NCBI RefSeq assembly: GCF_002379095.1
Contig: NZ_NBZV01000002.1
Span: forward strand, 183,185-247,184
Direction: 5' to 3'
Source of the DNA: Polaromonas sp. AER18D-145
GTDB taxonomy: Bacteria > Pseudomonadota > Gammaproteobacteria > Burkholderiales > Burkholderiaceae_C
DNA length: 64,000 bases
Of this stretch, positions 24,879 through 30,912 are shown in pieces. Both the position numbers and the translations under genes were made by a program. A model generated the notes under the pieces. It made no database searches and had not been told where the DNA came from. It saw nothing but the letters and a program-made list of their open reading frames with translations. Each line of letters opens with the position of its first letter. The first letter of the stretch is position 1.

Positions 24879-25331
24879 TCAGTCCAGATGCTCGAGCAGC
24901 AGCGGCGCAATCATTTCCAGAAAACGGTATTCGCCTTCCGGCAGGTGCCGGGCTTCGGGGTCCATCTGGCACAGCGTGCCGTACAGATGCCGGGGGCCGC
25001 GCGACAAAGGCAAGCCGACATAGGCATTGATCACCCCGCGCTGAAAATGGGTGGCCAGGCGCGCGTCGGTCAGGACATCCTCGCTGACAAAGGCCTGGCC
25101 GGCCTGCACAAAACTGCAAAGCGAGTGGTCACGGGGCGTGGGTGGCAACGGGGACGCCACCTGGCCGAGCCGGTCGTGAATGCCCACGTTCAGCATCACG
25201 TCACCGTCGAGCTTGTAGATGGCCGTGTAGCGGTGCGGCGCGCGCCGGTTCAGGAAGGCAAGCGCACCGGGCACCCCATGGTCCGCCAGCACTGCCTTGA
25301 ATTTGGCAATGTCGTCAAAGCAGTCTTGCAC
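24879..25331 (-). CDS. GAF-domain protein
   Basis: A 150-residue protein formed by a single GAF domain: FKAVLADHGVPGALAFLNRR, TAIYKLDGDVMLNVGIHDR, the SLCSFVQAGQAFVSEDVLTD region typical of GAF, and AYVGLPLSRGPRHLYGTLCQ. GAF domains bind small ligands or chromophores and sense metabolites or redox state. Initiation is at GTG 25331. There is no attached output domain, so it may work with the receiver protein encoded downstream. Starts 117 bases after the 66-residue protein's stop. Confidence 0.82.
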   Translation of the reverse strand: MQDCFDDIAKFKAVLADHGVPGALAFLNRRAPHRYTAIYKLDGDVMLNVGIHDRLGQVASPLPPTPRDHSLCSFVQAGQAFVSEDVLTDARLATHFQRGVINAYVGLPLSRGPRHLYGTLCQMDPEARHLPEGEYRFLEMIAPLLLEHLD

Positions 25332-26829: not shown

Positions 26830-26871
26830 GGGCGCCTGCTTTCATCGGTGGTCATGTCGGCGCGGCCAGCC

Positions 26872-27038
26872 TAGGAGCCTGTCGGACTTGGGAATCGTCG
26901 GCTGCAAATCGACCGCAGCGGTCCATTTTTCACCGTCTTTTTGTCCCATAGCTGGGCTATGGGCCTGCACATCCGGCAAAAACTGTCCTCGCCGGGGCCG
27001 ATTTTCGCTTTCGACGCCCCAAGCCCGACAGGCTCCTA
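26872..27038. mobile_element. MITE-like element with 21-bp terminal inverted repeats
   Basis: A 167-base non-coding segment bounded by TAGGAGCCTGTCGGACTTGG at the left and its near-perfect inverse (CCAAGCCCGACAGGCTCCTA) at the right: 20 of 21 terminal bases match. No open frame inside. A single end-like sequence (TAGGAGCCTGTC) recurs at 58084. Confidence 0.75.
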
Positions 27039-27062
27039 GCGGCCTGCCATGCCGTACTTTAC

Positions 27063-27745: not shown

Positions 27746-28534
27746 CTACCTGGCACGCGGGCCGTCGGTCGGCATGGTGAAGGAGTCTTCCCACTGTGTC
27801 GCGAAACGGCCCGGCTTGTCTCGGGTCATGAAGGAGCCGGTGCCCTCCGGGTTGAAGCCGATGTTGCGGTTCTTTTCCCTGGGGTCGGGCTCGGCAACCT
27901 GTTTGTCCTTGATCTCCTTGAGGGCGGCGGCCTTGGCCGCGCGCACTTTCTCGCTGGTGAACTCATCGAGCGCCGCATGAAAGCTGCTGTCGCCGCCACG
28001 GGTCTCCTCGGCCTCGGCCTCGGCCATCGGGACCTCGCCCAGAAACGCCGCCCGCATGGCGCCGCCCGAGGGCAGGCTGCCACTGCGCACCGTGGTGTAG
28101 CCAATACCGCATTCCAGCAACAGGCTCTCCTTCATGTCCTTTTGCGCCCGGGGAAGGCCCCGTTTTCCCGGCACATCGACACAGCCGACCACCTTGCCCT
28201 CCAGGGTGCAGACGCTGAAGCTGCAGTAAACCCCCTCCAGCAGTTCGTGCCAATGCTGGTCCTTGTTTTCGGGCCGGTTTTTCGTGCTCGGAATCGTGAA
28301 ACGCATGACAGGCACCTTGATCATCACGGCATGATCCGCAAAAGCCGTGCGCAGCCACTTCCACACCTCCTGCTCCTCGCTGGTCATCAGGCCGCGGGCG
28401 TTGAGCAGCCAGCGCGCCGGCAAACGCAACTTCTGCTCGACGCGGCGGCGTGACCAGCCCCAATGCGCCAGAACCCCCAGGCCGACGCCCAGCGAAAGGC
28501 CCAGCGCAGTCATCAGCCATGTGGATAGGTTCAC
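27746..28534 (-). CDS. DUF2726-like protein with N-terminal membrane anchor (copy 1)
   Basis: A 262-residue protein starting at GTG 28534, preceded by AAGGAG. An N-terminal membrane helix (TWLMTALGLSLGVGLGVLAH) is followed by a domain with MTSEEQEVWKWLRTAF, HELLEGVYCSFSVCTLEGKV, VVGCVDVPG and a KDMKESLLLECGI stretch: the pattern of DUF2726, a nuclease-like fold. The C-terminal third is charged and Ala/Glu/Lys-rich (coiled-coil-like). The gene 28639-29112 encodes a shorter homologue directly upstream. Domain assignment is by pattern and not certain. Role unknown; probably cytoplasmic domain anchored to the inner membrane. Confidence 0.7.
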   Translation of the reverse strand: MNLSTWLMTALGLSLGVGLGVLAHWGWSRRRVEQKLRLPARWLLNARGLMTSEEQEVWKWLRTAFADHAVMIKVPVMRFTIPSTKNRPENKDQHWHELLEGVYCSFSVCTLEGKVVGCVDVPGKRGLPRAQKDMKESLLLECGIGYTTVRSGSLPSGGAMRAAFLGEVPMAEAEAEETRGGDSSFHAALDEFTSEKVRAAKAAALKEIKDKQVAEPDPREKNRNIGFNPEGTGSFMTRDKPGRFATQWEDSFTMPTDGPRAR

Positions 28535-28638
28535 GGTATCTCCTTCTTGTGTGGGCACGCTGCCCAATGCAACCGCGCGTCTGGCCGCCAGCATAAATCA
28601 CAAACACCCCGCCGGTCAAAACATGGCGTCCGCAACGG

Positions 28639-29112
28639 TTACCAAATGAAGCAGCGCGGCCGGCGCTCAGGAATTGACGGCGCCCCCCAGCGGAAAGGCA
28701 CGGACCAGGCGCTTTGGCTCCGTACCAGTGAGGAGCCCTGTCGCTCCCCCACGACATCCACGCAGCCGATCACGGTTCCGTCCGCGCCGCATACCGTGAA
28801 CGTGCAGTAGACGCCGCTCAGGCGCTTGTGCCAGACCTTGCTTTCTGCGGGGGTGGTGGGTGCGGTGTAGCGCACCAGCGGGATCTTGAGCATGACGTGG
28901 TAGTCCGCAAAGACCGCGCACAACCACTGCCAGACGTCGTGTTCATCCGGGCCGACCAGCTCGCGCGCCGTGATCGGCCACTGGCTGGGGGCACTCATGC
29001 TGCGGAGGGCTGCACGTCGCAGATGACTTCTGTAAAGCAGGCTGCAGGCGCCCACCGCAGACACCATCAGCAAAGCCCCCAAGCCCACCCGCTCCGTCAA
29101 GTCATTGAGCAC
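28639..29112 (-). CDS. DUF2726-like membrane-anchored protein (copy 2, shorter)
   Basis: A 157-residue homologue of the downstream gene product. It has an N-terminal hydrophobic helix (VGLGALLMVSAVGACSLL), the matching block DEHDVWQWLCAVFADYHVML, KIPLVRYTAP, RLSGVYCTFTVCGADGTV and IGCVDVVG, but it ends soon after, lacking the D...K...LL segment and the long charged tail. It may be a shortened paralogue or a decaying duplicate. Upstream (29159-29196) lie sequences similar to those in front of the S24 repressor gene, suggesting shared control. Confidence 0.7.
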   Translation of the reverse strand: MLNDLTERVGLGALLMVSAVGACSLLYRSHLRRAALRSMSAPSQWPITARELVGPDEHDVWQWLCAVFADYHVMLKIPLVRYTAPTTPAESKVWHKRLSGVYCTFTVCGADGTVIGCVDVVGERQGSSLVRSQSAWSVPFRWGAPSIPERRPRCFIW

Positions 29113-29158
29113 GTGTCCTCCCTCTTTTTAGGGGAGTCTACCCACATCCCGGAAAAAA

Positions 29159-29196
29159 GATAATTTTTCTATCTAAAACAGAATTATTTTTGTCTC
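29159..29196. promoter_or_regulatory. Operator-like sequence in front of the DUF2726-like pair
   Basis: On the minus strand GATAGAAAAATTATC (29173-29159) matches 13 of 15 bases of GATAGAAAATTTGTC at 29910-29924; TTTTGTCTC at 29188-29196 resembles ATTTGTCTC at 29919-29927. It is 47 bases upstream of the gene starting at 29112. Confidence 0.5.
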
Positions 29197-29266
29197 CGAT
29201 ACGTCAACCCCCGGCTGGCGCATGGCGCACTGCGCCCGGTATCCGGGTCTGCGTCACTCGTTCCGG

Positions 29267-29884
29267 CTAGCGGAATTTTTTGGTGAATTCGCGCACGACA
29301 CCGATGATCTCGGCAGTGCCCAGGGGACGGATGGGGTAGCGCACATTGAGCGGCTTGAGAAACAACTCGCCACCATCCATGATGAGCTGCTTGAAGGTCG
29401 TCTTGTTCTCGCCGTTGAGGGCGATCACATAGTCGCCCGGCACGGCCTGCATTTCGGGCTCCACGATCAGCAGAGAGCCTTCGGGGAAGGAATCGATGCT
29501 GTCGCCAACCATGCTGTCTCCCTGAACACGCAACGCAAACGTGTGACGTTTGATGGCAATGGTCACCGGCACCCTCTCCAGCCCGTCCTTGGGATTGAAG
29601 TTGTCAATGACCGTGTAGTTTCCGGCCTGCACTTCCGAGATCAGCGGCACTTCAGCCCGCACGTCAAAACCCGGGCGGACGTTGGAACCACCAGACATCA
29701 ACTCGGCCACGAAAACGCCAAGCAGTTCTGCCACCCTGCGCTGGTTGGAACGTTTTGGCGCGGTGCCGTCCGGTCTTTCCCATTGTTGTACGGCCCCGCG
29801 GCTGACGCCTGCAGCGTCAGCAAATTGCGGCTCGCTCATGGCCAGCCGTTTGCGGCCTTCCCGGATTAATGTATGAACGCTCAT
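29267..29884 (-). CDS. S24-family self-cleaving repressor (CI/LexA-like)
   Basis: A 205-residue phage-type repressor. An XRE helix-turn-helix covers residues 5-62 (MSEPQFADAAGVSRGAVQQW), a linker follows, and the C-terminal S24 domain has the Ala87-Gly88 cleavage site (SEVQAGNY), the catalytic Ser124 (QGDSMVGDS) and Lys165 (TTFKQLI). All residues needed for RecA-stimulated autocleavage are in place, so it should lift repression after DNA damage. Neighbouring genes are not obviously phage genes. Two 15-base operator-like repeats lie just upstream and one in front of the DUF2726-like pair. Confidence 0.88.
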   Translation of the reverse strand: MSVHTLIREGRKRLAMSEPQFADAAGVSRGAVQQWERPDGTAPKRSNQRRVAELLGVFVAELMSGGSNVRPGFDVRAEVPLISEVQAGNYTVIDNFNPKDGLERVPVTIAIKRHTFALRVQGDSMVGDSIDSFPEGSLLIVEPEMQAVPGDYVIALNGENKTTFKQLIMDGGELFLKPLNVRYPIRPLGTAEIIGVVREFTKKFR

Positions 29885-29909
29885 AGTCTATAGGTTAGGC
29901 CTCCGCCTC

Positions 29910-29943
29910 GATAGAAAATTTGTCTCTGGATAGAGAATTTAGC
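29910..29943. promoter_or_regulatory. Tandem operator-like sites upstream of the S24 repressor
   Basis: GATAGAAAATTTGTC (29910-29924) and GATAGAGAATTTAGC (29929-29943) match at 12 of 15 positions, 19 bases apart. The last lies 45-59 bases upstream of the repressor start. Likely autoregulatory sites. Confidence 0.6.
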
Positions 29944-30183: not shown

Positions 30184-30816
30184 CTAACTGTCCTTGAGCA
30201 AAAACTGCATGCTGGTTCCCGCCAGTTCCAGCACGTCGTTGTGGGCCAGCGGCACCGCATCGGCACCTACTGGCTGGCCATTGAGCGTCGGCGGGACCCC
30301 GCCTTCCATGTGGGCCACGTAGTAGCCGTAGCGCCGGTGGGAGACGGCCACGACGCTGACATCGGGCTTGCCGAAAGTGGTCACCGCCTTGACCACAGGC
30401 ACCTCCAGTCCGGCCGAAGAGCCCGAGAGCACCTTGAAGCTGGCGTGCAACGTCCCACTCCCCCCCGGCGCAGCGTGGCCATCGAGCTTCATCGCCGCCG
30501 TCTCGTGGTAGCCGGTATCTTCCGAGGCCGAGAGGTACTGGATCCTGAAGTTTCCAATGGCGATCATGTCGTTGTCGTGCAGCAATTGCCGTGACTTGAT
30601 CATCTTGCCGTTGATATAGGTGCCGTTGGTGCTGCCCAGGTCTTCGACATACACGTCGGCCAGGCCCTCCAGTTCAAACACGCAGTGCTCGCCGCTGACC
30701 ACCAGGTTGTTGAACACAATGTCGTTGTGCGGCCGCCGGCCCAGCGTCGTGCGGTCCTTGTGCAGGTAGACGTGTTTGATTTCGACACCCTCGACCGATG
30801 CAATGAGTTGCGGCAT
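30184..30816 (-). CDS. FHA-domain protein
   Basis: A 210-residue cytoplasmic protein. The N-terminal forkhead-associated domain (about 20-95) has the phosphothreonine-binding residues: GRRPHNDIVF (Gly26-Arg27), SGEHCVFE (Ser41, His44) and GSTNGTYING (Asn64-Gly65). The C-terminal part (about 125-205: TFGKPDVSVVAVSHRRYGYY, LNGQPVGADAVPL, DVLELAGTSMQFLL) looks like a second, degenerate FHA domain. Start ATG 30816, preceded by GGAGG. FHA proteins read phosphothreonine from Ser/Thr kinases or serve type VI secretion or division; no kinase is encoded here. Confidence 0.88.
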   Translation of the reverse strand: MPQLIASVEGVEIKHVYLHKDRTTLGRRPHNDIVFNNLVVSGEHCVFELEGLADVYVEDLGSTNGTYINGKMIKSRQLLHDNDMIAIGNFRIQYLSASEDTGYHETAAMKLDGHAAPGGSGTLHASFKVLSGSSAGLEVPVVKAVTTFGKPDVSVVAVSHRRYGYYVAHMEGGVPPTLNGQPVGADAVPLAHNDVLELAGTSMQFLLKDS

Positions 30817-30912
30817 AAGGCCTCCCGGCTGCGTCAAGACTGCCGCGGTGCGCCCTTCGCACAGCGGCCTGTTCATCGTATGCCTGACGCTGCCCGGAAA
30901 CAAGCCCCCGGG

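Follow-up and report, generated by a model that had tools for sequence, protein, structure and literature searches.

A cellular CI-like S24 repressor of Polaromonas located between matching operator-like sites, with differing downstream genes in Variovorax

Our analyses have identified, in a 64,000-nucleotide stretch of DNA from Polaromonas sp. AER18D-145 (referred to below as the window), a cellular S24 repressor resembling the CI proteins of phages that lies between matching operator-like sites (Table 1). The explanation that we favor with moderate confidence, on the basis of sequence comparisons, is that this protein likely represses its own promoter as well as a forward promoter downstream of its gene, and that both are predicted to be released by DNA damage.

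Table 1. Features of the repressor locus and of a candidate site elsewhere in the genome (positions refer to the window unless a locus is named)
Feature	Position	Strand	Remarks
duB	27746..28534	-	Predicted membrane-anchored DUF2726-like protein; long N-terminal helix; GTG start
duB promoter-like sequence, TTGACC-18-TATGCT	28590..28619	-	Free of operator-like sites
duA	28639..29112	-	DUF2726-like paralog of duB; 157 aa, truncated here; 229-238 aa at full length
TAGACT	29135..29140	-	Candidate -10 of the downstream promoter; 18 bp after the downstream site
Downstream operator-like site GATAGAAAAATTATC	29159..29173	-	13/15 identical to the GATAGAAAATTTGTC site; 46 bp before the duA GTG
Weak second GACA/GATA box	29180..29194	-	Upstream of the downstream site; by eye; ~21-bp register
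S24 self-cleaving repressor gene	29267..29884	-	205 aa; XRE-type HTH and S24 peptidase; A87-G88, S124, K165
TAACCT	29892..29897	-	Candidate -10 of the repressor promoter; by eye; TAACCT or TACCCT in the clade alignment
Proximal upstream operator-like site GATAGAAAATTTGTC	29910..29924	+	-26 to -40 from the repressor ATG
Distal upstream operator-like site GATAGAGAATTTAGC	29929..29943	+	Direct repeat; 19-bp register with the proximal site
FHA-domain gene	30184..30903	-	Lies upstream of the repressor throughout this clade
GATAGA...TTTTTCTATC pair, C72 candidate site	L263 3165-3189		Before a 594-aa gene between the selenoneine genes senA and senB

Characteristics of the repressor

The product of the repressor gene matches the Peptidase_S24 family (E 3e-20, 72.4 bits; cut-off 23.3), and its N-terminal region matches HTH_3 slightly below the cut-off of 23 (E 2e-4, 21.7 bits). 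The S24 domain with its Ala-Gly site and Ser/Lys dyad, together with the N-terminal HTH, places the protein among the S24 self-cleaving HTH repressors of the CI/LexA kind, and the solved structures nearest to it are those of lambda CI. A first-pass annotation of this DNA had credited the repressor with a complete cleavage apparatus, and rightly so: all 121 sequences in an alignment of the window's protein with the best 120 of 1005 homologs have Ala87, Gly88, Ser124 and Lys165, and residues 26-36 of the HTH are almost invariant there. The nine closest named matches are Polaromonas contigs (88-96% identity). The repressor is under strong purifying selection, its median dN/dS of 0.062 (45 pairs) comparing with 0.061 for pssA, 0.172 for the FHA gene and 0.173 for duB.

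The protein shares the S24 domain and the predicted cleavage mechanism with LexA and differs from it in its XRE-type HTH; identity with LexA was ruled out by a score of 44.5 bits against the cut-off of 110.95 in the LexA equivalog model. The genome searched (a 4.8-Mb assembly of 135 contigs, the window being on contig C2) carries a second S24 gene (L001 1168-1878), which, from its N-terminus, we take to be of the LexA type. There is no perfect LexA box (CTGT-N8-ACAG) in the window; two of the 13 one-mismatch cases are near, at 29514 within the repressor gene and at 27794 within duB. A link with a defence system was also considered and rejected (two weak HTH matches for the repressor and none for the four neighbours tested).

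The best phage-family match of the repressor is PHROG family 4 (phrog_4, transcriptional repressor; residues 6-202, E 1e-34), and the nearest named phage repressors, of the P22 C2 type, are 36-37% identical to it. Both matches would suit a leftover prophage immunity repressor, kept for blocking phages with the same operators, a view that we regard as very improbable, since its close relatives reside on chromosomes or very large replicons, a scan of viral contigs yielded one relative at 29% identity, and the 358 phage records matched are all below 60% identity. The pattern matches in viral contigs say nothing in its favor, those listed being mostly AT-rich, with an S24 relative (26-33% identity) encoded in only 2 of 149 stretches. 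Neither adjoining phage genes (none was named among six ORFs tested at 26.2-30.9 kb) nor close viral relatives were found, in agreement with the cellular rather than prophage setting proposed earlier. Domain order and cleavage residues are shared with P22 C2 and lambda CI; the Polaromonas gene differs from these in that it has no named phage neighbours or divergent cro and in that operator-like sites flank it.

Operator-like sites upstream of the repressor gene

The three matching sites that had been noticed earlier, two in the repressor's own promoter region and one at 29159, are real and above chance. Scored with a matrix derived from repressor-upstream sites only, they reach 28.2, 26.4 and 25.0, and the next-best scores in the window are 11.7 (overlapping a site) and 9.8 (non-overlapping). 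Site matches with at most two mismatches number 5 (one overlapping the 29159 site) against 0.78 expected, and 0 of 100 shuffles reach 5. When the site set is followed into related genomes, all three sites are found in each of the ten clade loci, with a weak downstream site in L017, and they recur in Variovorax.

The tandem upstream repeats (CTATC-N14-CTATC on the coding strand) are kept in every locus of this clade (the window and L009-L017), with a spacer one base shorter in L011. For 22 further loci the best upstream match exceeds every control stretch in 19, and the site lies at -39 to -41 in 16; it is weaker in L088 (4.8% of controls as high) and L095 (2.4%), and in the remaining further loci 0 to 8% of shuffles match the score. 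The repressor of L094 was recovered for residues 86-205 only, which renders its upstream test and its place in the tree void. All 11 repressor-bearing Polaromonas genomes have the pattern CTATCN{10,15}TTTCTATC exactly once, each time a short way upstream of the repressor; among 12 repressor-less genomes (picked from 75) one has it, there within a simple repeat. The candidate -10 hexamer TAACCT ends 7 bases before the ATG, which suggests a leaderless repressor mRNA.

The downstream site and the forward promoter

The downstream region was scanned in 32 loci (after removal of paralogs below 60% identity and of loci whose repressor DNA was identical) with a matrix of 20 Polaromonas upstream sites only, and scored against control stretches, of which most non-Polaromonas loci have only 39-42 each. 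The best downstream match is above every control stretch in 28 of the 32 loci. It is weak in L017, where 1.4% of controls reach its score, and the matrix scan finds no downstream site in L078 (same genus as the window, genome G464), L093 and L097; in L011 the top score falls on the adjoining weak box instead, and the L091 match beats its 40 controls, but 9.5% of shuffles equal it.

The downstream site likely gates a forward promoter, because it stands exactly 18 bp before a conserved TAGACT (TAGTCT in L011) in 10 of 10 clade loci. Its position past the repressor stop ranges from 64 to 106 bp in the same loci. Of the 22 loci outside the clade, 13 carry a downstream element built as an inverted pair that spans 34-35 bp, with GATAGA ... 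TCTATC or a close variant of it; the pair in L068 spans 38 bp, L072 and L092 have a single 15-bp palindrome, and L087, L091 and L095 are near-misses. A forward promoter-like sequence (TGGATA, TAGATA or CTGATA, followed after 17 bp by TATATT or TACATT) lies inside the element in 8 of the 22, with scores, from a promoter matrix that does not come from a tool, that 0 to 20% of shuffles equal. By consensus, the window's downstream promoter is a weak one whose score 18% of shuffles reach; TAGACT falls within the top promoter match in only 2 of the 10 clade loci, and a promoter scan tool run on the window did not report this promoter.

Alternatively, the downstream site could have no target gene and serve the repressor's autoregulation only, as an auxiliary operator that acts, for instance, through DNA looping across the gene. 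Its persistence in loci with a broken or missing duA, and in those whose next gene is apparently convergent, would fit such a role. We consider this unlikely in view of the exact 18-bp spacing to a -10-like hexamer, which all ten clade loci share despite a 42-bp variation in how far the site lies from the repressor gene, and of the promoter-like sequences within the element in other loci.

duA and duB as supposed targets

The first-pass annotation had placed the downstream site before a pair of DUF2726-like genes and had taken control of both to be the purpose of an SOS-inducible switch. The location is confirmed, the site lying at a promoter-like sequence that faces the pair. The family name holds in a weak sense only: duB falls below the cut-off of DUF2726 (PF10881; 22.8 bits against 24.7), a profile search gives no DUF2726 match for duA, and a whole-genome search for the family returned zero matches at E 1; on the other side, the homolog P0001, 91% identical to duB, bears PF10881 in its precomputed annotation, and duA is 43% identical to duB over 93 aa.

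Control of both genes was not supported in that form, and we judge it improbable as the purpose of the switch. The order repressor-site-duA-duB (repressor-site-duB in L017) is found in 10 of 10 clade loci, and transcripts from the downstream promoter could run on into duB. Against this, duA is full-length in only four of the ten loci (L012, L013, L014 and L016), being broken in the window (a truncation that had been missed), L009, L010, L011 and L015 and absent in L017, other genes take the place of the pair in Variovorax, and duB has a site-free promoter-like sequence of its own (TTGACC-N18-TATGCT), which is kept in 10 of 10 clade loci and reported independently by the scan tool. A similar sequence (TTAACC...TATGCT) precedes duB in the repressor-less locus L041, in which the FHA gene lies next to duB and the repressor, duA and the site are all missing; this assembly is 84% complete with 6% contamination, so both loss and a primitive state are possible there. 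The sequence is not clearly shared by distant duB homologs (L042-L049). In a survey of duB homologs (34 matches, four without a locus left out), the loci from repressor-less Polaromonas genomes contained an exact site match in 0 of 23 cases and a one-mismatch match in three. With duA in decay and duB equipped with a promoter-like sequence of its own, the downstream promoter may at present have little output in Polaromonas.

The duB family is expanded in Polaromonas, with members in 19 of 61 genomes searched and up to 4 matches per genome, and the genome of the window has a split duB copy on contig C42. A nuclease function for duB was considered and rejected: the AlphaFold model has a mean pLDDT of 72 and a pTM of 0.50, and its best PDB match has an E of 0.44, with some nucleases among the weak matches and none significant. 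None of the papers found in a search for DUF2726, judged by title and the start of the abstract, concerns this locus.

Distribution of the repressor and its downstream genes

The distribution of the repressor is patchy. At E 1e-30 it was found in 12 of 87 genomes from the window's genus, one match being distant; at E 1e-40 it was found in 17 of 101 genomes assigned to Variovorax, in 1 of 10 genomes of a third genus and in 4 of 399 family-wide. It also occurs on the Variovorax paradoxus VAI-C record CP063167.1. In Variovorax, the repressor and the same kind of downstream element precede genes unrelated to the DUF2726-like pair. Such cargo, defined as same-direction neighbours within ~0.5 kb of the repressor stop from ORF-based gene calls, includes families of small proteins (viz. 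78-101 aa in L068, L071, L080 and L081; 78 aa in L067 and L096; 67-96 aa in L080, L090 and L094) as well as a GAF-like family recognized by eye in L018 and L086, the sigma-70 factor of L088 and isolated cases. Pfam searches with six Variovorax cargo proteins named only the sigma-70 factor. The next downstream gene in L072, L082, L083 and L092 is apparently convergent, which leaves the element without an obvious target.

The ten DUF2726 loci form one clade in the repressor tree (98/95), and the other cargo labels scatter on poorly supported deep branches; the 14 labels, which are our own, need 16 changes, and 10 of 28 inner branches are starred. Since the repressor-plus-downstream-element unit precedes unrelated genes in Variovorax, it is probably this unit, and not the DUF2726-like genes, that selection keeps.

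Several further observations concern the surroundings of these loci. A SUI1-like gene lies further upstream of the FHA gene. Four kb from the repressor, a 150-aa protein (24879-25331) appears GAF-like by eye, with no Pfam family above cut-off, and has homologs (31-40% identity) near repressor relatives in Variovorax L018 and L019. In L018 (5195-5884) and L086 the first repressor has a head-to-head neighbour, a divergent second S24 repressor with an N-terminal CxxC extension and 50-53% identity to the query repressor, which lacks a strong site of the GATA-N7-TATC kind. Between pssA and the next gene, a stretch of ~165 bp (26871-27040) with inverted ends (taggagcctgtcgg ... ccgacaggctccta) has the look of a REP/MITE-type element.

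Specificity of the sites and a candidate second target

The loose pattern GATAGANAANNNNNC is not enriched in the genome of the window, with 13 exact matches against 31 for the reversed control. Three of the 13 are at the repressor locus, and nine of the other ten are inside open frames of 140-948 aa; each of the six such frames tested against Pfam has a family above cut-off (viz. LytTR, actin-like, Rieske, QueC, transporter and lyase). The tenth match, GATAGAAAAACCATC (contig C72, L032), is intergenic, with a matrix score of 13.9; the LytTR match, inside a gene, scores 15.8. The C72 site GATAGACTTCGATGGTTTTTCTATC precedes a gene for a 594-aa protein, with senA (minus strand) on its other side and senB after that gene. 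The 594-aa protein resembles the N-terminal part of a ~2000-aa protein family in the genus.

Standalone copies of the 594-aa gene were compared in 13 genomes (nine repressor-bearing, four without the repressor). In five of the nine repressor-bearing genomes, these five being close relatives, the C72-type site scores above all controls (13.9, 18.0, 13.9, 11.7 and 8.1). The site is weak in G025, where 3.7% of controls score equally high, and is missing from G260, G016 and G472 and from all four repressor-less genomes. These comparisons only hint that the 594-aa gene may be a second target of the repressor. The motif ATAGACT is kept in the promoter region of all 13 copies, with or without the repressor, and this conservation in an unrelated promoter region lends support to TAGACT being a real -10 in the genus. 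Paralogs of the repressor (50-56% identity; nine rows, several copies), which served as a negative control, gave best scores of -10.8 to 4.7 and no strong site.

Proposed mode of action and relation to known systems

We propose that the repressor binds palindromes of the GATA-N7-TATC-like kind. The upstream pair would cover the -35 region of the repressor promoter and lead to autorepression, and the downstream site would cover the -35 region of the forward promoter just past the repressor stop, which in Polaromonas would face duA and then duB. Upon DNA damage, activated RecA would stimulate cleavage at Ala87-Gly88, and both promoters would open; inducibility by DNA damage is a prediction from the cleavage residues alone.

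As judged from the Variovorax cargo, the locus may represent a switch complete in itself whose neighbours can be exchanged, most akin to FddR of Francisella, the nearest described system to the Polaromonas unit. FddR is a co-opted lambdoid S24 repressor with a tiny regulon, autoregulation and a palindromic operator, whose paralogs pair with different genes while the motif is unchanged (PMC13148647). The Polaromonas unit appears alike in its cleavage residues and, as far as can be read from sequence, in its palindromic operator at its own promoter, its autoregulation and its very small regulon (one candidate target elsewhere), as well as in having different partner genes with the same motif. 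It differs in that FddR units are divergently transcribed pairs with the motif GTG-N11-CAC, whereas in Polaromonas the upstream FHA gene is co-directional, the partner follows the repressor on the same strand and has a separate operator set, the motif is GATA-N7-TATC-like, and the genome also has a LexA-type gene. AlpR of Pseudomonas aeruginosa is likewise a self-cleaving repressor of a small cellular DNA-damage locus, and controls the activator AlpA, which switches on lysis genes (PMC7969949); genes of this kind were not seen at the Polaromonas locus. A literature search, mostly outside subscription papers, did not reveal any account of this family of repressors in Polaromonas or Variovorax.

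A broader reading, which we put forward tentatively and hold to be less probable than the two-promoter explanation itself, is that of a transferable DNA-damage switch of Comamonadaceae, in which tandem operators precede the repressor gene and an operator-promoter-operator socket follows it. Its cargo (DUF2726-like membrane proteins, several small unknown families, a sigma factor and a GAF-like protein) would be exchanged while repressor, operator code and socket geometry stay fixed, and it would act beside the LexA network and be starting to recruit targets elsewhere.

If true, this would constitute a further FddR-like case, in LexA-bearing bacteria, of SOS-like networks that expand from small autonomous repressor units whose partners can be swapped; it would also provide a precise operator code, GATA-N7-TATC-like and 18 bp from a -10-like hexamer. 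The locus further shows strong selection acting on a regulator and its sites beside a decaying gene, a caution against naming a switch for the genes next to it.
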